Shown: positions 2,885-62,772 of the stretch, in pieces
Layout: each line of letters opens with the position of its first letter
Numbering within the stretch: the stretch's first letter is position 1
Virus record (IMG/VR): IMGVR_UViG_3300027971_000031
Location: 43,127-107,126 of that record
Reading direction: 5' to 3' (one strand)
From: a virus
DNA: 64,000 bases
Notes under the pieces: model-generated
Told to the model about the DNA's origin: nothing
Databases searched by the model: none
The model's input: only the letters and a program-made list of their open reading frames with translations
Position numbers and translations under genes: made by a program

Positions 2885-3607
2885 ATGAAACAATTAAGAA
2901 TTTTAGAAGCAAGCGAAGTAGGTCATGGAATATTGGTTGAAACCGACGCAGGTTGGATATCACCAAAAGATATTCGTAACGCCGAGATGTTAAGAGAAGC
3001 AAAGGAGTTAGATTATAGAAATCCTTTTGAATTTTATGCGGTATTACAAAAATACGATACACCAAATAGAAACGGAAGATTTTATCCTGAAAGAATATTA
3101 AAGAGAGAAGCAATAAACTATCAAAAAGCAATTGAAAAGGGTTTATCCACTTCAGAACTTAATCACCCTGAATCGTCTTTAATTGACTTAGATAGGGTAT
3201 CTCACATCATCACAGAGATATGGTGGGATAGAAATATCTTAATGGGTAAACTTAAATTGTTAACATCGCCAGGTTTTCATGAAAGAGGTATTGTTTCCAC
3301 TAAAGGAGACCAAGCAGCTAACTTAATGAGACAAGGTGTTACTATGGGTGTTTCTTCAAGAGGTGTAGGTTCGTTGAAAAAGGTTGGTGAAAGAAATGAA
3401 GTACAAGACGATTTTGAATTAATCTGTTTTGATTTGGTATCATCTCCATCAACACCAGGAGCTTATTTATTTACGAATCCTGATGATAGAGATAAGTACG
3501 AAGAGAACTTGGAAGAAGAAAAAAAATACAAATCACCTGAAAATTCGGAATTTCAAACTAAAGGAGTTGACTTAATGAGAAAATTAACCGATTATTTGGG
3601 AAAATAA
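2885..3607 (+). CDS. 21: Prohead core protease, gp21-like
   Basis: This is the maturation protease that cleaves scaffold, capsid and internal proteins inside the prohead. The 240-residue length fits the family (T4 gp21 is 212). The likely catalytic His is His94 in ELNHPESS, and the likely nucleophile lies in the MGVSSRGVG motif (Ser157/Ser158), typical of this herpesvirus-assemblin-like serine protease family. The N-terminus contains ILE/A at residues 6-9, which matches the (L/I)xE cleavage consensus of T4 gp21 and suggests self-processing. The gene is preceded by a late-promoter-like box and lies upstream of the scaffold and capsid genes, as in T4. Confidence 0.92.
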   Translation: MKQLRILEASEVGHGILVETDAGWISPKDIRNAEMLREAKELDYRNPFEFYAVLQKYDTPNRNGRFYPERILKREAINYQKAIEKGLSTSELNHPESSLIDLDRVSHIITEIWWDRNILMGKLKLLTSPGFHERGIVSTKGDQAANLMRQGVTMGVSSRGVGSLKKVGERNEVQDDFELICFDLVSSPSTPGAYLFTNPDDRDKYEENLEEEKKYKSPENSEFQTKGVDLMRKLTDYLGK

Positions 3608-3977: not shown

Positions 3978-5537
3978 ATGAAAGAAAACAAATTAGTCCA
4001 AGAGGCTCTTATTCAAATGAGACAAGTTGAAGAAGCTATAGCCGAAAATGCAAAAGGAATACTTGCTTCAACTATGAAGGAAGAAATCAACCAATTAGTA
4101 AAAGAATCTCTTTCTGAACAGGATGATGAAAATGAGATTGATTTAGATGCAGACGTTGATACGGATGCTGATAACGATGAAATGGAAATGGATATCGATA
4201 CAGATATGGACATGGACTCTGATGAAGAGGATATGGATATGGATGTTGACATGGATATGGACATGGATTCAGAAGAAAGTCCAATAGATTTAACTGACGC
4301 TTCTGACGAGGAAATCTTGAAAGTATTCAAAGCTATGGGTGAAGATGACGGTATCATTGTAAAAAAAGATGGTGAAAACGTTCATTTAACTGATGATGAT
4401 GCTGACGTAGAATATCTTGTTAAGCTTGGTGAGTCTGAAGAAGACGAATTAATGCAAGAAGACGATATGAATTACGACGAACGAGATGAATCTGTTGATG
4501 ACGTTATTAACGCTATTTTCTCTGATAATGGTGATTCATCAGATGTTGAAGATTTTGACGATGAAGAAGAAGTTGTTTATGAAATAACTTTAGACGATGA
4601 TGATGACGAAATGATGGACGATGATGATGACGAAATGATGGACGATGATGATGACGAAATGATGGATGATTCAGAAATGAGGGAAGAAGATGACATGGAC
4701 GATTTAACAAATGAAACTTACAAACCTAAAGGTGTTGGAATGGGCTCAGGTCCTAAATTTTCTTACAAAGATAAAGCTAAAGGCGGATTTGATGAAAAGA
4801 AAAAAGTAGGTCCTAAATCAGTTGGTACTGGTAAAGCAAAATTTGAATACAAGAAAGGTGAAAATATGGGAGGTAAATCCAAAGTTGTTAAAGCAGAAAC
4901 TAAAGAAGGTGATTACGGAATGAATAGAGGTGATAAATCTAAAACCATGAAAGGTAAAGAAGATTACACTACTAAAAAAGGTATGACAAATTCTAAAGGA
5001 GAAAAAGCTTTTGAAAAAACTGAAACAAAAGAAGCAGCTAGAACATACGGAATGGGTTCCAAAGAAGGTAGAGGATTAAGAAAAGGCATCACAAATAACA
5101 GAAACTATGTTTATGGTAAAAATGGTGTTAAAGTTGAATCAACTACTTCAGAAGAAGTTAGAATGTTGAGAGAAAAGAATGAAGAGTACAGAAAAGCATT
5201 GAATGTGTTTAGAGAAAAACTTAACGAAGTTGCAATCTTTAATTCAAACTTAGCTTACGCAACAAGATTGTTCACAGAGCACTCAACCACTAAAAAAGAA
5301 AAAATAAACATCCTAAGAAGATTCGATGATGTTGAAACTTTAAAAGAATCTAAAAATCTTTATAAGTCAATCAAAGACGAATTAAATACTGTGGATACAA
5401 AATCAATTAACGAATCGGTAGCAACAAAACTAAACAAATCAGTTTCTACAGGTTCATCAACAACTCTAATTGAATCAAAAACTTATGAAAATCCTCAATT
5501 CTTAAGAATGAAGGACTTAATGGGTAAATTAGGTTAA
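3978..5537 (+). CDS. 22: Prohead core scaffold protein, gp22-like
   Basis: This is the major internal scaffold around which the capsid shell assembles. The assignment rests on position directly before the capsid gene, extreme acidity and helical ends. Residues 1-50 are helical with clustered protease-like sites (IAE at 21-23, LSE at 45-47), residues 50-250 are nearly all Asp/Glu/Met, residues 250-390 are Lys/Gly-rich, and residues 400-519 form a helical C-terminus ending in MKDLMGKLG. It is much longer than T4 gp22 (about 270), mainly because of the low-complexity acidic and basic stretches. The LVKESLSEQD motif at 40-49 recurs in a minus-strand accessory protein at 10085-10546. Sequence identity to T4 gp22 is likely too low to see, so the call leans on context. 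Confidence 0.85.
   Translation: MKENKLVQEALIQMRQVEEAIAENAKGILASTMKEEINQLVKESLSEQDDENEIDLDADVDTDADNDEMEMDIDTDMDMDSDEEDMDMDVDMDMDMDSEESPIDLTDASDEEILKVFKAMGEDDGIIVKKDGENVHLTDDDADVEYLVKLGESEEDELMQEDDMNYDERDESVDDVINAIFSDNGDSSDVEDFDDEEEVVYEITLDDDDDEMMDDDDDEMMDDDDDEMMDDSEMREEDDMDDLTNETYKPKGVGMGSGPKFSYKDKAKGGFDEKKKVGPKSVGTGKAKFEYKKGENMGGKSKVVKAETKEGDYGMNRGDKSKTMKGKEDYTTKKGMTNSKGEKAFEKTETKEAARTYGMGSKEGRGLRKGITNNRNYVYGKNGVKVESTTSEEVRMLREKNEEYRKALNVFREKLNEVAIFNSNLAYATRLFTEHSTTKKEKINILRRFDDVETLKESKNLYKSIKDELNTVDTKSINESVATKLNKSVSTGSSTTLIESKTYENPQFLRMKDLMGKLG
4593..4664 (+). repeat. Three tandem 24-base units inside scaffold gene
   Basis: Three identical 24-base units encode DDDDDEMM three times within the acidic domain (about residues 206-229). 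The exact identity at DNA level points to recent tandem duplication by slippage or recombination. Confidence 0.9.
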
Positions 5538-5581: not shown

Positions 5582-7387
5582 ATGGGAGCATTATTAGAAT
5601 CAGGTCTTGTAGGTAACATCGGGTTAAAACACCTTAAAGTTATCAAAGAAGACACAATCAACAAATGGGACAAATTAGGCTTTTTAGAAGGTCTTAAAGG
5701 TCACATGAGAGAAAACGTAGCACAATTATACGAAAACCAAGCATCGTTCTTAATTAACGAAGCATCATCTACATCTGACACAGGTGCATTTGAAACAGTT
5801 GTTTTCCCAATTGTAAGACGTGTATTCTCTAAATTATTAGCGAATGACATCGTATCAGTACAAGCAATGAACTTACCTATCGGTAAATTATTTTACTTTG
5901 TACCTAACATTCAGGCTTACACTGACCCAGCTAACTTAGCTACTACAGGTATTCACTACCCACCTTATGGTTCACCAAACGCTGCGGCTGACCAAACACC
6001 AAACAGTGGTTATGACTACAACAACACTAAAGACCTTTACGATAGATTCTACGAAGGTAACGAACCAGCGTTAGACCCACCAGGTTTATTCGACTATTCT
6101 AAAGGACAATATTCTGCAATCACAGCTCCAGTTGTAACTGTATCTTGGTTAGCAGACCAATTGGTTCCTTCAGCTTACACTACAGACAACTATAGAAAAG
6201 TTCTTATTGTTATGTCAGGTTTTGCAGCTGATGGTGCTGGTAAATTAATCGGTCCTGATGGTCAACCAATGGATAACGAAGCGTTTTTATCTGATTTAAC
6301 TATCTATGGTGTTGCAGGTAATAACTACACTTCAGGAAACACAAGTAACCCTTACTTATTTAGAGTTGTAACTCAAAGATATGGTAAAGGTATTGTACAA
6401 TACGGTAATAACAACTCTACGTTAGTATTCCCTAACAGTAAAACTGATGGTGGTCAATATGACAACATGTGTGATGCTGAAGGTAAAATCTACTTAGAAG
6501 TTGATTTACAAGTACCAGTTTGTATTACTTGTGGTGGTTCTATGGACGGTTACACAGGTTCAACATTCTCTTCAGATACAACAAGTAATGATGCATTTAC
6601 TGCAACTTACAGAATCTACAAAAACTTAGAATTTGAAGATAGAATTGGTGAGGTATCTTTCGACCTTATGTCAGTTACAGTTTCTGTAACAGAAAGAAAA
6701 TTAAGAGCTCAATGGTCTCCAGAAATGGCACAAGACGTTGCAGCATTCCACAACATCGATGCTGAAGCTGAATTAACAGCTTTATTATCTGAGCAAGTTG
6801 CGGCTGAAATCGACCGTGAAATCTTAAGAGATTTACGTAAAGGTGCGGCTTGGAACTTACGTTGGGATTACAATGGTTGGAAACGTCTTGGTTCAAGTGC
6901 AGTTCCTTACACTCAAAAAGACTGGAATCAAACGTTGATTACAGCTATCAACCAAATTTCGGCTCAAATCCACAAATCTACCTTAAGAGGTGGAGCTAAC
7001 TGGATTGTTGTTTCTTCTGAAATCAGTGCTATCTTTGATGACTTGGAGTACTTCCACGTATCAAATGCAGCTCCTGAGCAAGACCAATACAACATGGGTA
7101 TTGAAAGAGTTGGTACATTAGCTGGTCGTTACCAAGTGTATAGAGACCCTTACTTCCCACCAAACCAAGTGTTGTTGGGTCACAAAGGTACGTCTTTACT
7201 TGACACAGGTTATATCTACGCACCGTATGTACCTCTACAATTAACACCTACAATGTACAATCCATTCAACTTTACACCTATCAAAGGTATAATGACGAGA
7301 TACGCTAAGAAAATGGTTAATAACCGTTTCTACGGACGTATCACGGTTGATGGTGTACGTACATTCGATTTAAGAGAATTGAGATAA
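5582..7387 (+). CDS. 23: Major capsid protein, gp23-like
   Basis: This is the main shell protein (601 residues; T4 gp23 is 521). The family's N-terminal layout is visible: a helical propeptide of about 60 residues, then INE/ASSTSDTGAF at 58-70, which fits the (L/I)xE cleavage consensus of the prohead protease and would remove 60 residues. The core follows with FPIVRRVFSKL and a C-terminal MTRYAKKMVNNRFYG segment typical of T4-like capsid proteins. The 44-base leader is almost pure A with few other bases and has no Shine-Dalgarno sequence, which is the kind of leader favoured by Bacteroidetes ribosomes. A terminator follows at once, and no gp24 vertex paralogue is next to it. Confidence 0.95.
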   Translation: MGALLESGLVGNIGLKHLKVIKEDTINKWDKLGFLEGLKGHMRENVAQLYENQASFLINEASSTSDTGAFETVVFPIVRRVFSKLLANDIVSVQAMNLPIGKLFYFVPNIQAYTDPANLATTGIHYPPYGSPNAAADQTPNSGYDYNNTKDLYDRFYEGNEPALDPPGLFDYSKGQYSAITAPVVTVSWLADQLVPSAYTTDNYRKVLIVMSGFAADGAGKLIGPDGQPMDNEAFLSDLTIYGVAGNNYTSGNTSNPYLFRVVTQRYGKGIVQYGNNNSTLVFPNSKTDGGQYDNMCDAEGKIYLEVDLQVPVCITCGGSMDGYTGSTFSSDTTSNDAFTATYRIYKNLEFEDRIGEVSFDLMSVTVSVTERKLRAQWSPEMAQDVAAFHNIDAEAELTALLSEQVAAEIDREILRDLRKGAAWNLRWDYNGWKRLGSSAVPYTQKDWNQTLITAINQISAQIHKSTLRGGANWIVVSSEISAIFDDLEYFHVSNAAPEQDQYNMGIERVGTLAGRYQVYRDPYFPPNQVLLGHKGTSLLDTGYIYAPYVPLQLTPTMYNPFNFTPIKGIMTRYAKKMVNNRFYGRITVDGVRTFDLRELR

Positions 7388-10084: not shown

Positions 10085-10546
10085 TTAACAATAAGCTCCA
10101 GAGCACTGTCTTTTACCGTCCAATCCTTTGATTTTACCCTTACATACTTGAACGGCATATCCGTTAGCGTATGCTGATGGATAAACAGTATATTTTGATT
10201 TGGCGGCAGATTTACCTCTTGCACAAAGTGGAGTTCCTGTTTTTTTTCTACCTTCATTCATTTCTTCAAAATCAACATATTGTGATTCTTTTTCCATTTC
10301 ATTTTTTAAGAAATCAAAAACTTGGTCAATATTTGTTTTGGCTTCGGATATATGGTCATCTGCCCAATCATGTCCATTTTGAAGTATTTGGTCAACTGTT
10401 GATGGGTCCATCTCCATAATCATTTCAAGTTGTCTTTTCATCTGTTTTAAATTTGAAAAGAACATATAATTCGTTTCGTCTTGTTCTGAAAGAACTTTTT
10501 TAACAATTCTGTTTAAGTCTGATTCGGTTAATTTTACTGTTTTCAT
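10085..10546 (-). CDS. LTES-tagged protein with Cys-containing basic C-terminal domain
   Basis: The N-terminus KLTESDLNRIVKKVLSEQD (residues 5-23) contains two prohead-protease-like sites, LTE/S (6-9) and LSE/Q (19-22), on an amphipathic helix. Its second half, IVKKVLSEQD, is nearly the same as LVKESLSEQD at residues 40-49 of the scaffold. The acidic middle is helical. The C-terminal 50 residues contain TPLCARGKSAAK, VYPSAYANGYAVQVCKG and a last CSGAYC, a small conserved basic Cys-bearing domain that I have seen in hypothetical proteins of marine T4-like phages. The gene starts one base after the structural gene at 10548, so it is late and cotranscribed. I infer a packaged internal protein; the domain's activity is unknown. 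Confidence 0.7.
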   Translation of the reverse strand: MKTVKLTESDLNRIVKKVLSEQDETNYMFFSNLKQMKRQLEMIMEMDPSTVDQILQNGHDWADDHISEAKTNIDQVFDFLKNEMEKESQYVDFEEMNEGRKKTGTPLCARGKSAAKSKYTVYPSAYANGYAVQVCKGKIKGLDGKRQCSGAYC

Positions 10547-52770: not shown

Positions 52771-53892
52771 TTAAATTACATATATTTGACGAGGCATTGC
52801 TCTGAATTTCATTTGTTTATTTAGATTTTCAGCGAGTAATGCTTCTTTTTCCATTACTTTCTCAGGACGTAATCTTGTTAACCAACCTTCGGGACCTGTT
52901 AATTCTTCAATCAACTTTGTCTTTTCGTCTTTCCCTTCAGTTAATAAACTTGTGTAGTCCATTTGTAATTCTGAGTCAGGAGCCTTTAAGTTTCCACTAT
53001 ATTTTCCTCTAACTCTACCTAATGTTTCTTTAACATATGCGGTGAACCATCTTCTTACCCATTGTTGAGCGGGAACATTTAAATCAACCCAATTCATTTC
53101 CTCTAAAGGAACTTCATTTGGCATTTTAATTACGTCAGGATTATTTTTTAAACAATCGGCTCTACTATCAGGTGTTACATCATAGTACCAATACCATACA
53201 GCTTTACCAACATATTGACTATAATTACCCCAGTTAAACTGATTACCAGGAGCGTTGTATAATTGTAAATCTTTTTTACCGTCAGGTAATGCCGTAATTC
53301 TATAAGTTAAAGAACCACCAAGAATTCTATTTAAGATGTTAGATTCTTGCATTCTAATTAGATAGTCAAACCCTGACATCATATAATAAGAACCTTGATA
53401 TCCCATTTGAGCAAAACCTGCTTCGTTTGCACCAAGACCAGCACCACCAAATCCGCCAATACCACCCATACCAAATGCGGTGATAGGTTGGTTGCTAAAC
53501 CATAAAACCTCATTGATTTCACGACCTGCAGGAATTTCGTAATTTTGTTTGTTTTGTTCAAGAATAACATAATCCTTTTTTAATACCCAAGGACCTTGAG
53601 CCTGAAGACCCACAATTTTTGAATATGAATATGAGAATTGTTGTTCAAAATCCATTGTTCTTGTGATTAATGCTTGAGCAACAGATTTTTCAGTCATGTT
53701 AAGATTAACCAAGTTAACCCACTGACTATCAATTAACCAATTCAAGATATACTGTTCATAATCTTGAATAGATAATTCCATCAACGAGTCCATCATTTCA
53801 TCAGTGACTTCAACACTTCTTAATGGTGCACCCAATAGATGTTTAATTCTCGTATAAATTTTCGACCTTTCTGGTTCTGGTATAACTGCCAT
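52771..53892 (-). CDS. 13: Neck (head completion) protein, gp13-like
   Basis: The 373-residue protein opens YTRIKHLLGAPLRSVEVTDEMMDSLMELSIQDYEQYILNW, the helical pattern of T4-like gp13 neck proteins: a short helix, an LGAP turn, then a long helix with a Tyr-rich end. A later DLNVPAQQWVRRWFTAYVKETLGRVRGKY is also typical, close to the C-terminus in the family. A Gly-rich loop (about 140-175) is an insertion. gp13 seals the filled head together with gp14. It is on the opposite strand from the gp14/gp15 candidates and separated from them by the dismutase fusion and the SNF2 gene, unlike T4. Confidence 0.68.
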   Translation of the reverse strand: MAVIPEPERSKIYTRIKHLLGAPLRSVEVTDEMMDSLMELSIQDYEQYILNWLIDSQWVNLVNLNMTEKSVAQALITRTMDFEQQFSYSYSKIVGLQAQGPWVLKKDYVILEQNKQNYEIPAGREINEVLWFSNQPITAFGMGGIGGFGGAGLGANEAGFAQMGYQGSYYMMSGFDYLIRMQESNILNRILGGSLTYRITALPDGKKDLQLYNAPGNQFNWGNYSQYVGKAVWYWYYDVTPDSRADCLKNNPDVIKMPNEVPLEEMNWVDLNVPAQQWVRRWFTAYVKETLGRVRGKYSGNLKAPDSELQMDYTSLLTEGKDEKTKLIEELTGPEGWLTRLRPEKVMEKEALLAENLNKQMKFRAMPRQIYVI

Positions 53893-53916: not shown

Positions 53917-55446
53917 TTATATACTATATAAAAGTGAATCAGGAGGAAAAACAAAGTTACCTTTAATAATTTTTGGTTTTTTATCAAACACTAAAACATT
54001 TTTCCCTCTTTGAAATACCATCCAATCTGTTTTATACAATTTAACACTTGCAGTACCCTCCAATTCCATTCCGTCTTCGGTTTGTTTCATTTCTCTGTAT
54101 GGTTTAACTTGAGCGGTATATAAAGTATCATCTTTAAATATTTCCAAATCTACTCCTTGGATTGCATCTTTTTTGTTTCCTAACTCACCAATCATTTCAA
54201 CTTTTGCACTTTTACCAAAAAATCTTTTAAGAATTGATGCCGTGATTTGTTCTCGTTTGTCGCCAGCTTTGTTTTTTTCGGTTAAAGTTATTAATAAATT
54301 AATAAATGTTGAACTTTCTCTATCAAAGATTCTATATTTAAAATGGTCCAAAGCACTTACGAATCTTTCAACTTCTTTCTTTTGTTGTGCTGGAGTTTTA
54401 TCTATAAATGATATTGGTTTTTTATTTGGTATTTTTGTAATAACGTAATTTAAATCTCTTAACAAGATACAAAACGCAGTATAATTTGTATTTAATTTAT
54501 TTATTACTGACCTACCAGGTCCTTCAATATCATAAACGCCAGGTAATTGATTGTTATTTGGTGTCTCAATATAATTTTCATTAAAAACTTCTTTAAGAAT
54601 TCTATTAATACCATTCATATAAGTCCATTTAATGTCTTGGTTTACATTAAATAACATTCTATAAAATTCATTATCAGATTTTGAACACATTTCAGATTTA
54701 CCTTCACTTAAAACTTGTTTCATTTTGGTAGATTCTGTTAATTTAGTTTCAACTTTCATTTCATACATTTTGGTTACAAAATCCCAATTAACCACTTTCC
54801 AAAAGTTTGTAATGTATTCATCTCTTTTGTTTCTATATTTCAAATAATAAGCATGTTCCCATAAATCCAATCCCAACAATGGAAAACCACCACCTTCAAT
54901 AACATTCATTAATGGATTGTCTTGGTTTGGAGTCGACATAATTTTTAATCTGTTATTGGAGGTTAGAACTAACCATACCCAACCTGAACCAAATCTTTCT
55001 TTACCAATTTTATCAAACTCTTTTTTAAAGTTTGTGAATGTTCCCCACTCTTTGGTAATTTTTTTATAAAGTTCACCTGTTAGTTTTTTTGGTTCGGGAC
55101 TTAACATATTCCAAAACAAAGCGTGGTTAAATGCTCCACCTGCGTTGTTTCGAATTGTTTTATCAAAACGACTGATTGTCTTGATTATTTTTTCTAATTC
55201 TAAATCTCCGTATTTTTTCTTTGATAATGCGTCGTTTAGTTTATCAACATACCCTTTGTAATGTTTATTGTAATGGAAACTCATGGTTTCGGGGTCAATA
55301 AACTGTTTGAGGGCTGAGTAGGAATATGGTAGTTTCTCTATTCCAATTTTTTTCATTTCTGTAATCAACAACTCTTTTTCTATGGTTACGTGATTTTCAA
55401 GTATCTGTAACTCTAGTTGTTGGATTTTCTCTTTTGTTCTTTTCAT
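53917..55446 (-). CDS. Fe/Mn superoxide dismutase fused through an LTES linker to a nuclease-like domain
   Basis: Residues 38-230 are a complete iron/manganese superoxide dismutase: LPYSYSALKQFIDPETM, the four metal ligands His58 (FHYNKHY), His108 (GGAFNHALFW), Asp194 and His198 (GLDLWEHAYYLKY), and GSGWVWLV. A helical N-terminal extension precedes it. Residues 235-250 (KLTESTKMKQVLSEGK) carry LTE/S and LSE/G, both fitting the prohead-protease consensus and resembling the tag at 10085-10546. The C-terminal 260 residues end in GVDLEIF (Asp433) and TAQVKPY (Gln446, Lys448), compatible with a PD-(D/E)xK nuclease core. The dismutase call is firm; the linker role and the nuclease call are inference. 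Confidence 0.85.
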   Translation of the reverse strand: MKRTKEKIQQLELQILENHVTIEKELLITEMKKIGIEKLPYSYSALKQFIDPETMSFHYNKHYKGYVDKLNDALSKKKYGDLELEKIIKTISRFDKTIRNNAGGAFNHALFWNMLSPEPKKLTGELYKKITKEWGTFTNFKKEFDKIGKERFGSGWVWLVLTSNNRLKIMSTPNQDNPLMNVIEGGGFPLLGLDLWEHAYYLKYRNKRDEYITNFWKVVNWDFVTKMYEMKVETKLTESTKMKQVLSEGKSEMCSKSDNEFYRMLFNVNQDIKWTYMNGINRILKEVFNENYIETPNNNQLPGVYDIEGPGRSVINKLNTNYTAFCILLRDLNYVITKIPNKKPISFIDKTPAQQKKEVERFVSALDHFKYRIFDRESSTFINLLITLTEKNKAGDKREQITASILKRFFGKSAKVEMIGELGNKKDAIQGVDLEIFKDDTLYTAQVKPYREMKQTEDGMELEGTASVKLYKTDWMVFQRGKNVLVFDKKPKIIKGNFVFPPDSLLYSI

Positions 55447-55467: not shown

Positions 55468-55475
55468 TATAAATA
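55468..55475 (-). promoter_or_regulatory. Late-promoter-like box TATTTATA (minus strand)
   Basis: The box is 21 bases upstream of the dismutase-fusion ATG. Late control would agree with a virion-packaged product. Confidence 0.6.
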
Positions 55476-55487
55476 ATCCGTAGTTCG

Positions 55488-57242
55488 TTAATATCGCAGT
55501 TCGTTAATTCTTTGTAAGATTTCTTCTGCAGCATCGGCCGGATGTTGGTTGTCGCCCATTACGGTGGCAATGACTTGTTTTTTGTTGTTTAGGATATCGT
55601 AGATGACACCTTCGATTGTATTTTCGAATATTGGATAATAAACCAAAACATTATTTTTTTGACCGTAACGATAAGCTCGGTCTTCGGCTTGGGCGTGGTC
55701 TGATGGAAGGAATGATAAGTCATTCATAATAACCGCTTCAGCCGCAGTCAATGTAATACCAACACCTGCGGCTTTAATGTTACCCACAAATACTTTAACT
55801 TTGGGATTATCTTGGAATTGGTCAACTGAGTTTTGTCTGTTGGGTTTTGACATGGAGCCATCAAGTTTAACTGCCGCTTTACCAAAGTGTTCTGTGATTT
55901 TATTTAAGGAATCTGTGAAATTACAAAAAATAATAACTTTTTTATCTTGTTCAATAATGTTTTCGGCAAGTTCGATAGTCTGTGCAATTTTTTCATCTGC
56001 AATGATTTGTCTAACTTTTGTTAATTTTGAAAATTGTACTGTGAGTGATTTAGATTCGTCAGGGTTCTTGTCGTACCAATCATAATACTCACCCATCACA
56101 TTTTCATATGACTTTGATTTCAATCTCAAATACACAGGAGTGATAATCTTGTCGGGTAAATCAAGTACGTTTTCTTTTAATCGTCGTAATGTTAGACCTA
56201 ATGTTCGGTCTCTTAATTCTTCAAGGTTAGACGCCCCCGTTACGTTCCAAACTTTTCTTCCACCAACATTAAATTGGTACCCTGAACAATAACGGATTGC
56301 ATATGCCATCCAATTCTTTGCCACGGGTGAATCGATTATACTTAATAAGTTGAAATAATCGATTGGCCTTGATGTCATTGGTGTACCTGTTAACAACCAA
56401 ATTCGTTCGGTATTTTTAATAATATCGTTAATTAGTTTTGTTCTTTGAGCCGTAGCATTTTTGATATAGTGAGCTTCGTCGATAATAACCAAATCAAATT
56501 TGGCGGCAAGAACTTGAGAATCGTCTTTCTTTTTAGGGTCATGGAAATTTTTAATTATATCGTAATTTATAATTACATAATCGGCTTCGGTACTGAAGTT
56601 TTTACTTTCCGCAATGTAGATTGATTTATCTGAATAATTTTCAATTTCACGTTTCCAGTTAATCTTTAATGTCGCAGGACAAATAATTAATACTTTCTTT
56701 GAACCTGACTCTAACGCTGCAATAATTGTTGAAGTTGTTTTACCAAGACCCATATCATCGGCAAGGATAAACTTTTTATTCTCCACTAATTTTTGAACCG
56801 CTTCTTTTTGGTGTTCAAGTGGTGGGCGATGAGAATACTTTGAATAATCAATTACAACATCTTTAACTGAATTGTCTTTAATGATTGCAGCCTTTGGTAA
56901 CCAAAAATCATGGAATTCTTCTTTATCCAATACTTTACCCCAAATGTGGTAAGCCTTTTCTTTATCCGCCAATAATTTTTCAACCCATACTTTTTGTGGG
57001 ATTTCAGTATACAATTTGTCGTCAGCCAATTTCTGAGCGAAGTATGTGTCAAGGATTACCCATTTCTTTGCAACCTTTGGTTGTTTGTTGTGAAAATTGA
57101 TAATGTATTCCGATTGACTCCTTGTTGGATAAAACTTTCTATTGACTTGTGATTTGCGTTTTAATTCCAAGATATAGTTATTGCCGCCCTCATACGACTC
57201 AAGAATGGACATTGCCTTTGATTCTAAACTAACATCACTCAT
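55488..57242 (-). CDS. SNF2-family DNA helicase/translocase
   Basis: The 584-residue protein has Walker A DMGLGKT (163-169), DEAH (255-258), WLLTGTP (282-287), a C-terminal helicase half with KVIIFCNF and AGVGITLTAAEAVI, and the SNF2 motif VI series DHAQAEDRAYRYGQ. The compact form without chromatin domains resembles SMARCAL1/HARP-like annealing helicases, and in function it may replace T4 UvsW in fork remodelling and recombination. An N-terminal 130-residue extension is unassigned. It is upstream of the dismutase fusion but with a separate promoter box between them. Confidence 0.92.
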   Translation of the reverse strand: MSDVSLESKAMSILESYEGGNNYILELKRKSQVNRKFYPTRSQSEYIINFHNKQPKVAKKWVILDTYFAQKLADDKLYTEIPQKVWVEKLLADKEKAYHIWGKVLDKEEFHDFWLPKAAIIKDNSVKDVVIDYSKYSHRPPLEHQKEAVQKLVENKKFILADDMGLGKTTSTIIAALESGSKKVLIICPATLKINWKREIENYSDKSIYIAESKNFSTEADYVIINYDIIKNFHDPKKKDDSQVLAAKFDLVIIDEAHYIKNATAQRTKLINDIIKNTERIWLLTGTPMTSRPIDYFNLLSIIDSPVAKNWMAYAIRYCSGYQFNVGGRKVWNVTGASNLEELRDRTLGLTLRRLKENVLDLPDKIITPVYLRLKSKSYENVMGEYYDWYDKNPDESKSLTVQFSKLTKVRQIIADEKIAQTIELAENIIEQDKKVIIFCNFTDSLNKITEHFGKAAVKLDGSMSKPNRQNSVDQFQDNPKVKVFVGNIKAAGVGITLTAAEAVIMNDLSFLPSDHAQAEDRAYRYGQKNNVLVYYPIFENTIEGVIYDILNNKKQVIATVMGDNQHPADAAEEILQRINELRY

Positions 57243-57296: not shown

Positions 57297-57809
57297 ATGG
57301 AAAAATTAGTTCCGATAACGAGATTAGGTAAATTCTTTGGTGGTGAAGATTTTGACCTTGATATTGGTATGGGTCAAGAATGGTTGGAGGGTGATATGAA
57401 CTTTACCATTGTGTTATATCGTATTGACCGTTATAAGACAAAGAAGGATGACGTTTATGGTGAAGTCATGGAAGACGGTATTCAATTCATGGCACCTGTT
57501 GAATTAAAAGGATTGGTTCAAGTTATGGCACCAACCAATAAATTCTATGGTAATTCCAAAGTTGAAATCCAAGAGCCAGGAAATATGAAATTCTCAATTT
57601 ATCAAAAACAACTTGAAGATTTGAATGTTGAAATATTCATGGGTGATTATATTGGATATTATGAAACCGAGGACCGAGTTAGATATTATTCTGTTAGTGA
57701 TGACGGATACGTTAGGTCCGACAATAAACACACATATGGTGGGTACAAACCATTTTATAGAACAATTACCGCCACATGGGTAAGTGAAAACGAATTTAGA
57801 GGATTATAA
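57297..57809 (+). CDS. 14: Probable neck protein, gp14-like
   Basis: The 170-residue protein has the arrangement of the T4 gp14 core: VLYRIDRYKTKKDDVYGEVM, a beta region, FSIYQKQLEDLNVEIFMGDYIGYYETEDRVRYYSV and PFYRTITATW, which parallel gp14's sequence of structural segments (a PxEY-like strand, a GDLIYFPMD-like strand and a DPFYQLG-like strand). It is shorter than T4 gp14 (256). Position before the gp15-like gene supports the call. gp14 binds gp13 at the portal exit. Sequence similarity is weak, so the call is tentative. Confidence 0.55.
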   Translation: MEKLVPITRLGKFFGGEDFDLDIGMGQEWLEGDMNFTIVLYRIDRYKTKKDDVYGEVMEDGIQFMAPVELKGLVQVMAPTNKFYGNSKVEIQEPGNMKFSIYQKQLEDLNVEIFMGDYIGYYETEDRVRYYSVSDDGYVRSDNKHTYGGYKPFYRTITATWVSENEFRGL

Positions 57810-58222
57810 TGAGAGTCGTTATTACAGAATCACAATTTGATAATTTATTCTTGGGTAAGAAGGTAATGGTCTATTACAACTTACACAAACAGACATTTTC
57901 TGTGACATACGACAGTAAAGTTATTATGCACGCTGACTATGTTAAGTTAGGTGATGTTGAATTCAGAGTTAGAAAAGGTGGTAAAGAACGAGTTCGTTCT
58001 GAAAAATCAAAAAACGTTCACGCATTTGTGATTGGAAGATTATTGGATTATTGTGAATATCCTTGTGATGACATTCCAAATCCACCGTCTGACATGATTG
58101 TGACATACAATCCTTATAGACACGATTCATTTGTTTATAAACAAAGTGAAGAACCCGTTTATAGAGCCGAAGAAGTTGATATGATTAATTCACAAAATAA
58201 ACTATTTGTAGTAAAAGAATAA
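57809..58222 (+). CDS. ITES-tagged small protein in the neck cluster
   Basis: The 137-residue product begins MRVVITESQFDNLF, with ITE/S at residues 5-8 resembling the prohead-protease tags of other proteins here. The body reads YYNLHKQTFSVTYDSKVIMHADYVKL, then a basic KGGKERVRSEKSKNVHAF segment, like a conserved small beta domain of T4-like phages without known role. It shares one base with the gp14-like stop and abuts the gp15-like start. It may be a packaged protein; alternatively the ITES start is an ordinary helix. Confidence 0.65.
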   Translation: MRVVITESQFDNLFLGKKVMVYYNLHKQTFSVTYDSKVIMHADYVKLGDVEFRVRKGGKERVRSEKSKNVHAFVIGRLLDYCEYPCDDIPNPPSDMIVTYNPYRHDSFVYKQSEEPVYRAEEVDMINSQNKLFVVKE

Positions 58223-59544: not shown

Positions 59545-62500
59545 ATGGCAACACAAGCAAATCAAAAAGTATTCGTATCACCAGGCGTTTACACATCTGA
59601 AACCGACCTATCATTCGTAGCCCAAAGTGTGGGGGTAACGACTTTAGGTCTTGTTGGGGAAACTATAAAAGGCCCAGCATTTGAACCAGTATTCATAACA
59701 AATTACGATGAGTTCCAAGCCTACTTTGGTGGAACCGAACCCGTTAAATTTTATAACACTCAAATCCCAAAATATGAGGCTGCATATATTGCTAAATCAT
59801 ACTTGCAACAATCAAACCAATTGTTTGTTACAAGAGTATTGGGTTTGTCGGGTTATGATGCGGGTCCATCTTGGAGTCTTTCATTAATTGCTAATGTTGA
59901 CCCAACAACGATTGGTTCACCATCAAACGCAACAACATTTACCGCAACATTTACTGGTACATCATCAGGAAATACAATTACCTTTATAAGTGGGGCGTTA
60001 CCTGCTCAAGTTCAGGCGAATTTGAATGTTCAATACAGATTACAAGACGGTTCAACATCTACAATACAAGAGGATTTTAACACATATTTAGGTAACATAA
60101 TTGACACACCATCTCTTTCGGCAACAACATCCGTAGTATATGGTGCAATTCCTGATGATGATTATACACCATTAATTAACTCATACCCAACAGTTCAAAA
60201 TCCTTATAATTGTATTAACGATTTTGAACTTAATGATTTATCGTCATCTGAAAATGACCCGTGGCTTTATGCTAACTTTGATATTTCTTCAGGAAATAAC
60301 TATACAGGTTATTCGTTCTACTATGTTGTTAATAGTTTAAGTTCAGGTGGCAGTGGTAGTTTTACTGGTACAGTTACAGGTGAAACATATACATTTACAG
60401 GTACTGCATACACAGAATTCAATAACATGGTTGTTGGTACTCTTCGTTCAAGAGGTATTACTCAATATGTTAATTCTGCGGATAGTATTGACCACGGACC
60501 TGTTTACGAAGTAGGTATTGATTACGAAAACGACAACGCTTGGGTTCCTAATAATTTACAATTAATTTGTACTGGACAATATTCAGGTATAACTGACACA
60601 CCATATGGAACATTCTTGTTATCAGGTGTAACTAAAGATAATAATACATTCTCATTAGAAACTTCATTATTGGCATCTTCTGCAAAATACATTACAAAAG
60701 TGTTGGGAGTTGATAATTTTGGTAAATCAAGATTTGAAGTTCCAATTTATGTTGAGGAAATTTATCAAGGAAGTTTAAATTATGCTTATAGTCAAGGATA
60801 CATTCGTGGATTGAATTGTGACTTAATTGCATTACCAGACGCAAGAAGTCAATCAAGTCAATCAATTGCATGGAATTTAGAAAAATACCAATCACCTGAA
60901 ACACCTTATTTGGTTTCTGAATTAAGAGGTAATAAGGTATATAACTTATTTAAGTTTATATCAATTTCTGATGGAGATTCAGCAAACACTGAAGTTAAAG
61001 TGTCAATTGCAAACTTATCATATAACAATATGTCGTTTGATGTTTTTGTTAGAAATTTCTTTGATACAGATGCAAACCCTGTTGTAATTGAAAAGTTTAC
61101 CAATTGTAACATGGACCCAGCAACTAATAACTTTATTGCGAAAAAAATTGGTTCGTCTAATGGTGAGTTCGCGTTGATTTCAAAATACATCATGGTTGAA
61201 ATGGCAAATGAGTATCCAATCGATTCTTTACCTTGTGGTTTCTACGGTTACACACAAAGAGAATATGAAGATGCTGCAATTTACCCATCACCATATCCTA
61301 AATTTAAAACAAAATACGATTATCCAGGTGAAGTTATTGCTAACCCACCTTTTGGAACACCTATTGGTGGTTCAAATACAGTGGAATCTCCTGGTGATAT
61401 TGTAAGAAGAACTTATTTAGGTTTCTCAACACAATATGGAATTGATGAATCATTCTTAACTTATAAAGGAAAACAAAACCCACAATCAAATTGGGCATTA
61501 GCGACTGACTCAATCAAATGGAATTACTTAAGTAAAGGTTTCCACATGGATTCAGGAGCAACTGTAGTTACAATTGCGAACACTTCAGAAACAAGTGGTC
61601 AAACAGCGTTTGAATGTGGTGTTGCAGAATTTAGAGCAGACCCAGCAACACAAGATAACCCATACTACTTTATCTACTCAAGAAAATACACTGTGTGTTT
61701 CGCAGGTGGATTTGACGGATGGGATATTTACAGAGAATGGAGAACTAACCAAGACAGATTCCAATTAGGACAGTCAGGTTATTTGGCGGGTACTGCACCA
61801 TCTTCAAGATACCCAACTGCAACAGGTGACGGATTGTTCAAGAGAATTATTGTTCAAAACAATACTCAGGACTTTGCAAATACTGACTACTACGCTTACT
61901 TACTTGGTATTTTGACATTCGCTAATCCTGAAGCAACTAACATTAACGTGTTTGCAAGTGCAAGTATTGACTATATTAACAACTCAAATCTTGTAGAAGA
62001 AGCAATTGACATGATTCAATACTCAAGAGCAGATTCAGTTTATATCTGTACAACTCCTGACTACCAAATGTATACACCAGATTCAACAAGTTCTTTGGAT
62101 ATCATCTATTCACAAGAAGCGGTTGACAACTTGGATAATACAGGAATTGACTCTAACTATACTGCAACTTACTACCCTTGGATTTTAACAAGAGATACTG
62201 TAAACAATACACAAATTTACTTACCACCAACAGGTGAGGTTTGTAGAAACTTAGCACTGACTGATAACATTTCATTCCCTTGGTTCGCATCTGCGGGTTA
62301 CACAAGAGGTCTTGTAAACTCAATCAAAGCTAGGCAAAAACTTACACAAACTGACAGAGATACATTGTATCAAGGTAGAATCAACCCTATCGCAACTTTC
62401 TCTGATGTTGGAACTGTAATTTGGGGTAATAAAACATTACAAATTGCTGACACAGCACTTAACAGATTGAATGTAAGAAGATTATTACTTCAAGCTCGTA

Positions 62501-62772
62501 AGTTAATTTCCGCAGTAGCTGTAAGATTATTGTTTGAACAAAACGACCAAATCGTTAGACAACAATTCTTGGATAGTGTTAACCCTATCTTGGATTCAAT
62601 CAGAAGAGACAGAGGTTTATACGATTTCCGTGTAACTGTTTCATCTTCACCTGAAGACTTAGATAGAAACACATTAACAGGTAAAATTTACTTAAAACCT
62701 ACGAAGGCATTAGAATTCATCGATATCGAATTCTTTATTACTCCAACAGGAGCTTCGTTTGAAAATATTTAA
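59545..62772 (+). CDS. 18: Tail sheath protein, gp18-like (enlarged)
   Basis: The contractile sheath subunit begins KVFVSPGVYTSETDLSF, the canonical start of T4-like sheath proteins, followed by LGLVGETIKGPAFEPVFITN and KSYLQQSNQLFVTRVLG. The C-terminal domain has NVRRLLLQARKLISAVAVRLLFEQND and ends with FRVTVSSSPEDLDRNTL and LEFIDIEFFITPTG, also canonical. The protein has 1075 residues against 659 in T4. The extra length is a Ser/Thr/Gly-rich beta region at about 110-400, plus expansions in the middle, likely surface domains on the outside of the sheath. Confidence 0.95.
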   Translation: MATQANQKVFVSPGVYTSETDLSFVAQSVGVTTLGLVGETIKGPAFEPVFITNYDEFQAYFGGTEPVKFYNTQIPKYEAAYIAKSYLQQSNQLFVTRVLGLSGYDAGPSWSLSLIANVDPTTIGSPSNATTFTATFTGTSSGNTITFISGALPAQVQANLNVQYRLQDGSTSTIQEDFNTYLGNIIDTPSLSATTSVVYGAIPDDDYTPLINSYPTVQNPYNCINDFELNDLSSSENDPWLYANFDISSGNNYTGYSFYYVVNSLSSGGSGSFTGTVTGETYTFTGTAYTEFNNMVVGTLRSRGITQYVNSADSIDHGPVYEVGIDYENDNAWVPNNLQLICTGQYSGITDTPYGTFLLSGVTKDNNTFSLETSLLASSAKYITKVLGVDNFGKSRFEVPIYVEEIYQGSLNYAYSQGYIRGLNCDLIALPDARSQSSQSIAWNLEKYQSPETPYLVSELRGNKVYNLFKFISISDGDSANTEVKVSIANLSYNNMSFDVFVRNFFDTDANPVVIEKFTNCNMDPATNNFIAKKIGSSNGEFALISKYIMVEMANEYPIDSLPCGFYGYTQREYEDAAIYPSPYPKFKTKYDYPGEVIANPPFGTPIGGSNTVESPGDIVRRTYLGFSTQYGIDESFLTYKGKQNPQSNWALATDSIKWNYLSKGFHMDSGATVVTIANTSETSGQTAFECGVAEFRADPATQDNPYYFIYSRKYTVCFAGGFDGWDIYREWRTNQDRFQLGQSGYLAGTAPSSRYPTATGDGLFKRIIVQNNTQDFANTDYYAYLLGILTFANPEATNINVFASASIDYINNSNLVEEAIDMIQYSRADSVYICTTPDYQMYTPDSTSSLDIIYSQEAVDNLDNTGIDSNYTATYYPWILTRDTVNNTQIYLPPTGEVCRNLALTDNISFPWFASAGYTRGLVNSIKARQKLTQTDRDTLYQGRINPIATFSDVGTVIWGNKTLQIADTALNRLNVRRLLLQARKLISAVAVRLLFEQNDQIVRQQFLDSVNPILDSIRRDRGLYDFRVTVSSSPEDLDRNTLTGKIYLKPTKALEFIDIEFFITPTGASFENI

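Follow-up and report, generated by a model that had tools for sequence, protein, structure and literature searches.

A gene in a 64,000-nucleotide stretch of viral DNA (the window; bases 43127-107126 of the 107,126-base virus record IMGVR_UViG_3300027971_000031) encodes a single protein in which a superoxide dismutase (SOD) is joined, through a linker with two protease-type sites, to a predicted PD-(D/E)xK nuclease. We propose, with a probability of roughly 0.52, that the gene encodes virion cargo in a lineage of uncultured aquatic T4-like phages, and that its nuclease would be released from the fusion and ejected as an effector. That a constant dismutase half is combined with a predicted DNA-cutting half that is swapped suggests packaged cargo directed against host or rival DNA. 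The open reading frame matches exactly the one claimed in a preliminary description of this DNA, and its parts are as follows.

53917..55446, (-) strand: fusion gene (SOD, two-site linker, predicted PD-(D/E)xK nuclease); 509 aa, ATG start
55469..55475, (-) strand: TATTTAT motif resembling a late promoter, 29 to 23 nt ahead of the fusion ATG
55339..55446, (-) strand: N-terminal helical extension of 36 aa preceding the SOD; possible capsid-targeting propeptide
55357-55365, (-) strand, residues 28-30: ITE/M site in the N-terminal extension, conserved
54757..55338, (-) strand, residues 37-230: Mn-type Fe/Mn SOD domain; ligands H58, H108, D194 and H198
54697..54744, (-) strand, residues 235-250: linker KLTESTKMKQVLSEGK with LTE/S and LSE/G; apparent cassette-exchange junction
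53920..54696, (-) strand, residues 251-509: exchangeable C-terminal domain, a helical part followed by the nuclease core
53983..54279, (-) strand, residues 390-488: predicted PD-(D/E)xK core; E399, D427, D433, Q446 and K448

Domains and protease-type sites of the fusion

The N-terminal half is a complete Fe/Mn SOD of predicted Mn type, in agreement with the full dismutase with four metal ligands described earlier. Both Pfam domains are present (Sod_Fe_N, E 1.5e-22; Sod_Fe_C, E 1.5e-39), the nearest relatives in the PDB are MnSODs (E ~1e-58), and the ligands H58, H108, D194 and H198, together with Y66, are invariant in 93 of 93 homologues.

Homologues were collected in scans with the SOD, the C-terminal domain and diverged members as queries, and the best 80 matches of each scan were read; some contigs recur between scans, and the later analysis was made on 119 distinct sequences. 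Among the best 80 of each scan were solely fused proteins; the C-terminal profile added 76 new loci, each of them an SOD fusion. The nuclease motif is present in 237 of 238 complete homologous open reading frames from IMG/VR contigs, the sole exception appearing truncated rather than an empty allele. Since these homologues come from many samples, an assembly chimera is ruled out as the origin of the fusion. Judged by sequence, the fusion is common to hundreds of T4-like virus contigs from lakes and seas; the C-terminal profile gave no match in bacterial or archaeal genome contigs.

The C-terminal domain very probably has a PD-(D/E)xK nuclease fold. AlphaFold predicted the structure of this domain (~255 aa) from a 35-sequence alignment with a pLDDT of 93 and a pTM of 0.88, and the top PDB match found by Foldseek is I-Ssp6803I (probability 1.00, E 2.7e-3), a PD-(D/E)xK homing endonuclease (PMC1995217). 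Further matches to this fold are Hjc (probability 0.84), BsaWI and RecU, and those from the viral structure library include phage Holliday-junction resolvases and PD-(D/E)XK proteins. The best match in that library is BFVD A0A6J5L953 (34% identity), a 501-aa protein of an uncultured Caudovirales phage, and the second is a 1113-aa marine phage protein. Because the predicted structure of A0A6J5L953 matches the nuclease domain of the fusion and the protein is annotated as superoxide dismutase, it is probably the same fusion, although its annotation names the SOD only and leaves the nuclease half unrecognised.

Residues E399, D427, D433, Q446 and K448 are invariant in 93 sequences. In the predicted structure, E399 lies within a long helix, D433 at the start of strand 434-438, and Q446 and K448 in the adjacent strand 441-449; the E...D...QxK signature falls in the secondary-structure elements expected of the PD-(D/E)xK superfamily. 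The earlier nuclease-like call is strengthened by the confident predicted fold and this invariant signature, and D433, Q446 and K448, whose separation would speak against it, lie on adjacent strands at the level of secondary structure. The D-x12-QxK pattern on which that call was based is present and invariant as D433-x12-Q446-x-K448, but sits mid-domain, 61 residues before the end, and is not terminal as had been stated. Core topology and signature are alike in I-Ssp6803I, Hjc, RecU and BsaWI; unlike these enzymes, the fusion nuclease has a large additional N-terminal helical part and occurs in three strongly diverged types. Searches of Pfam, NCBIfam and PADLOC for a curated family gave sub-threshold matches (DUF6602, E 0.014) or none, and a sequence-profile search of the PDB gave no credible match. 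When the full-length protein was modelled, the nuclease was kept and one helix spanned the end of the SOD through the linker, while the SOD half was poor because the alignment was shallow.

The linker KLTESTKMKQVLSEGK carries LTE/S at residues 236-238 and LSE/G at 246-248 (the slash marks the putative cut). Shuffled versions of the linker hold two [LI]xE[SGA] motifs per 29 residues in 0.06% of cases, and interior 29-aa segments of the contig's open reading frames do so in 0.19%. Among the 119 non-identical homologues, the P1 glutamate is kept in 119 at the first site and in 118 at the second, and P3 is always L or I at the first and L, I or M at the second. P1' is S, T, N or Q (mostly S) at the first site and mostly G, S or A at the second, and variation is seen at the x positions, in the flanks and between the two sites. 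A third site ahead of the SOD, ITE/M (residues 28-30), is kept in 93 of 93 sequences and ends a conserved 30-aa N-terminal helix, the LTES...LSEG tag being internal. The [LI]xE motifs within the nuclease are unconserved. The preliminary description had named both linker sites and had likened the linker to the N-terminal tag of the protein at 10085-10546; the same two-site tag is indeed found there, and relatives of that protein keep LTE in 33 of 36 and LSE in 35 of 36 cases, with variable flanks.

A candidate enzyme and two further proteins with such sites are encoded in the window.

2885..3607, (+) strand: prohead protease, matching the PHROG head maturation protease (E 9.5e-42) and a candidate for cutting at the linker sites
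5582..7387, (+) strand: major capsid protein; LINE/A at residues 58-60, nt 5753-5761
10085..10546, (-) strand: 153-aa protein with the two-site tag MKTVKLTESDLNRIVKKVLSEQ at its N-terminus

The protease is of the gp21 type, which cleaves C-terminal to glutamate (PMC5694885). In the T4 record, the internal proteins IPII and IPIII begin with MKTYQEFIAE/A and gp23 has FLTE/A; the LINE/A site of the window's capsid protein lies near the position of the latter and is conserved in 61 of 61 relatives. Across the contig, [LI]xE occurs at the N-terminus (residues 4-25) of 31 of 103 proteins, against 13.2 +/- 3.0 for interior segments, and none of 500 draws was as high. Proteins with (L/I)xE-ended N-termini possibly form a set of packaged cargo. 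The conserved sites, the gp21-type protease, the capsid [LI]xE/A site and the N-terminal enrichment all favour the earlier idea of release by the prohead protease; that release would happen in the capsid, and that the products would enter the host, goes further than these observations.

As a separate observation, many contig proteins begin with short (L/I)xE-ended peptides such as MKPYEIYLNES, MRLTPILIQEG, MKDLIRRIIIET and MKNKFQITEQEKKEILEQ (L082:1611-11788, L083:6302-7816, L083:11101-11856 and window 10085-10546).

The nuclease also occurs alone. Profile comparison identifies two megaphage proteins as stand-alone homologues (E 4e-10 and 3e-14); both share the catalytic residues, and the N-terminus of one of them, MKKFTEYIKE/SS, resembles the T4 sequence MKTYQEFIAE/A. 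This stand-alone form was searched for in IMG/VR and none was found there. In the 634-kb megaphage LR745206 (L273:2770-3522 and neighbours), the stand-alone nuclease and adjacent genes begin with MK-x-F/I-x-x-F-type peptides that resemble T4 capsid-targeting sequences.

Of 103 contig genes, 30 are preceded within 45 nt by the motif TATTTAT (1.5 at random; 10 in the opposite orientation), among them those for the portal, the protease, a scaffold-like protein (3978-5537), the sheath and the SOD-nuclease fusion. In 47 of 48 fusion homologues, the motif lies at -21 to -30. It looks like the late promoter of this phage, and late expression of the fusion gene would be the natural reading. The sense-strand motif is the reverse complement of the T4 late TATAAATA, for example upstream of window positions 2885, 3978 and 8627 and at 55469-55475. 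We also considered whether TATTTAT and the N-terminal [LI]xE tags mark the same genes, and set this aside as a weak association (p 0.05-0.17).

Exchange of the nuclease half and gene neighbourhood

The two halves of the fusion differ in variability, identity among homologues being 79-100% for the SOD and 16-100% for the nuclease. The nucleases fall into three types (72, 34 and 13 sequences) with mean identities of 28-36% between types, and three SOD clusters each hold more than one type. In two pairs of loci (L025/L163 and L107/L221), the SOD regions are identical and the nucleases 27% identical. DNA alignment of three pairs gave ~85-97% identity up to the linker, ~55% across the nuclease and ~90% just past the stop codon. 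These alignments indicate that the nuclease half is swapped as a cassette between linker and stop codon; the protease-type linker appears to hold the exchange junction, and no companion gene appears to move along. Three features go beyond the preliminary description: the sharing of the fusion by hundreds of contigs, the cassette-like exchange of its C-terminal part, and the conserved ITE/M site ahead of the SOD. Median dN/dS is 0.035 for the SOD and 0.091 for the nuclease, so both halves are under purifying selection. Taken together with the exchange pattern, this means that a working nuclease has apparently been replaced by another working nuclease. As in polymorphic toxins, a constant N-terminal part is combined with an exchangeable C-terminal domain; an adjacent immunity gene exchanged with the nuclease was not seen, DNA identity being back at ~90% no more than tens of bases past the stop codon.

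The genes around the fusion are fixed. The order SNF2 helicase, SOD-nuclease, neck protein, 111-aa protein and DNA polymerase (opposite strand) is kept as far as the sampled contigs extend, and the helicase and neck genes flank the fusion in 164 of 164 loci, some contigs having been fetched by more than one scan.

55488..57242, (-) strand: SNF2/UvsW-like helicase, fixed upstream neighbour of the fusion
52771..53892, (-) strand: head-tail adaptor (neck) protein, fixed downstream neighbour of the fusion

A gain or loss spot lies nearby: an L5 gp82-like gene (57809-58222) is found in 92 of the 164 otherwise syntenic loci.

The window carries T4-like genes for terminase, portal, prohead protease, major capsid protein and tail sheath. 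The sheath (59545-62772) has 1075 aa, and PHROG sheath models cover only about residues 856-1073, leaving a large N-terminal part unmatched. About 27 tRNA genes lie in the contig to the left of the window (L082:14794-19310 and L083:237-3646), and the window holds none. The closest annotated major capsid proteins include those of Microcystis and Flavobacterium phages at ~42% identity; a Bacteroidetes host would be a guess. Flavobacterium phage immuto has a capsid protein 42% identical to that of the window, and no SOD match was found in this phage.

Packaged cargo or another role

In the proposed mechanism, the fusion would be made late, together with the structural genes, and built into the prohead core. 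The prohead protease would cut after LTE238 and LSE248, perhaps also after ITE30, so that mature SOD would be parted from the nuclease inside the capsid. Both would then be ejected with the genome; the nuclease would attack host, plasmid or rival-phage DNA, with its specificity under diversifying arms-race pressure, and the SOD would limit superoxide damage at entry or storage. The variability of the nuclease is what a conflict component would be expected to show. Packaging plus cleavage, as read from the sequences, we consider somewhat probable, and the role of the nuclease as an ejected effector about evenly balanced. The dismutase is a plausible carrier. More tentative, at slightly less than even odds, is the whole picture of a capsid-packaged polyprotein cut by the prohead protease into SOD and nuclease, with the nuclease swapped like a polymorphic-toxin warhead, as protease-activated effector delivery in abundant aquatic T4-like phages.

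Several points weigh against packaged cargo. The capsid-targeting sequence of T4 is N-terminal and the fusion tag internal; a clear tag is lacking in the second megaphage homologue (LR756501); and TATTTAT co-occurs weakly with the N-terminal tags. The fold match to I-Ssp6803I has an E-value of 2.7e-3 with low whole-chain TM-scores, because the core alone matches. How packaged phage DNA would survive alongside a nuclease is unexplained.

The protein could instead act inside the infected cell and outside the virion, with the SOD guarding the cell, the nuclease degrading host DNA or trimming replicating DNA, and the linker serving as a flexible joint. Unfused SODs in other phage records and the SNF2/UvsW-like helicase upstream fit such an intracellular bifunctional enzyme. 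A plain joint, however, need not retain two [LI]xE motifs in 118-119 of 119 sequences amid varying residues, and the upstream motif is common to structural genes while the downstream neighbour is the neck gene; we therefore regard this explanation as rather unlikely. Still less probable is a selfish or mutual-exclusion endonuclease of the homing type, which would cut rival alleles and spread by gene conversion with the SOD gene as its site. Although I-Ssp6803I is the top fold match and the cassette exchange is sharp between conserved flanks, no empty SOD allele is found among the 238 complete open reading frames, neither an intron nor an intein is present, the reading frame continues into the cassette, which is under constraint, and stand-alone homologues exist elsewhere; the conserved protease-type sites would also be left unexplained. 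Fold matches to Hjc, RecU and phage resolvases, and the UvsW-like helicase and neck protein as neighbours, would also suit a late DNA-processing enzyme accidentally fused to SOD, i.e. a Holliday-junction or branched-DNA resolvase for packaging with a function like that of T4 gp49. A housekeeping enzyme should track its neighbours, whereas the three nuclease types (28-36% identity) swap while the neighbours are ~80-86% identical to those of the window, and we hold this to be the least probable of the three.

Implications and known systems

If packaged cargo is the right reading, widespread uncultured phages of lakes and seas would use the capsid to deliver a redox enzyme together with a variable nuclease, and the principle of the T4 internal proteins, which are small restriction inhibitors, would extend to an enzyme with a DNA-cutting warhead. 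Domain borders marked by conserved [LI]xE sites would then be a signature for packaged cargo in uncultured phages, and what is called an SOD auxiliary metabolic gene may belong to a conflict system rather than to metabolism. With its three natural nuclease types, this one locus would suit tests of specificity and of phage-phage exclusion.

The preliminary description knew of no system of this design, and this is consistent with the literature that we found, in which the T4 internal proteins come nearest. These are injected, polymorphic and host-specific (PMC12373910, PMC9026906), and nucleases fused behind IPIII get packaged (PMC9026906). Like T4, with its IPI, IPII, IPIII and Alt and their gp21-cut capsid-targeting sequences, the phage studied here has T4-like head genes, a gp21-type protease and [LI]xE/ sites, and its hypervariable putative cargo gene stands beside fixed neighbours; a homologue of the nuclease bears the N-terminal tag MKKFTEYIKE. 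Unlike in T4, the cargo follows a complete enzyme, the SOD, and not a peptide of 10-20 aa, and the tag is internal with two sites. Moreover, T4 internal proteins inhibit restriction nucleases, whereas the cargo of the fusion is itself a predicted nuclease. The fusion also resembles the polyvalent proteins of phages and conjugative elements, which combine several domains and mixed activities in one polypeptide and presumably enter with the injected DNA, some of them proteolysed ahead of packaging (PMC5512222). It differs from them in having no autoprotease domain, so that processing would fall to the prohead protease, and in its SOD, which is not mentioned in that account of polyvalent proteins.
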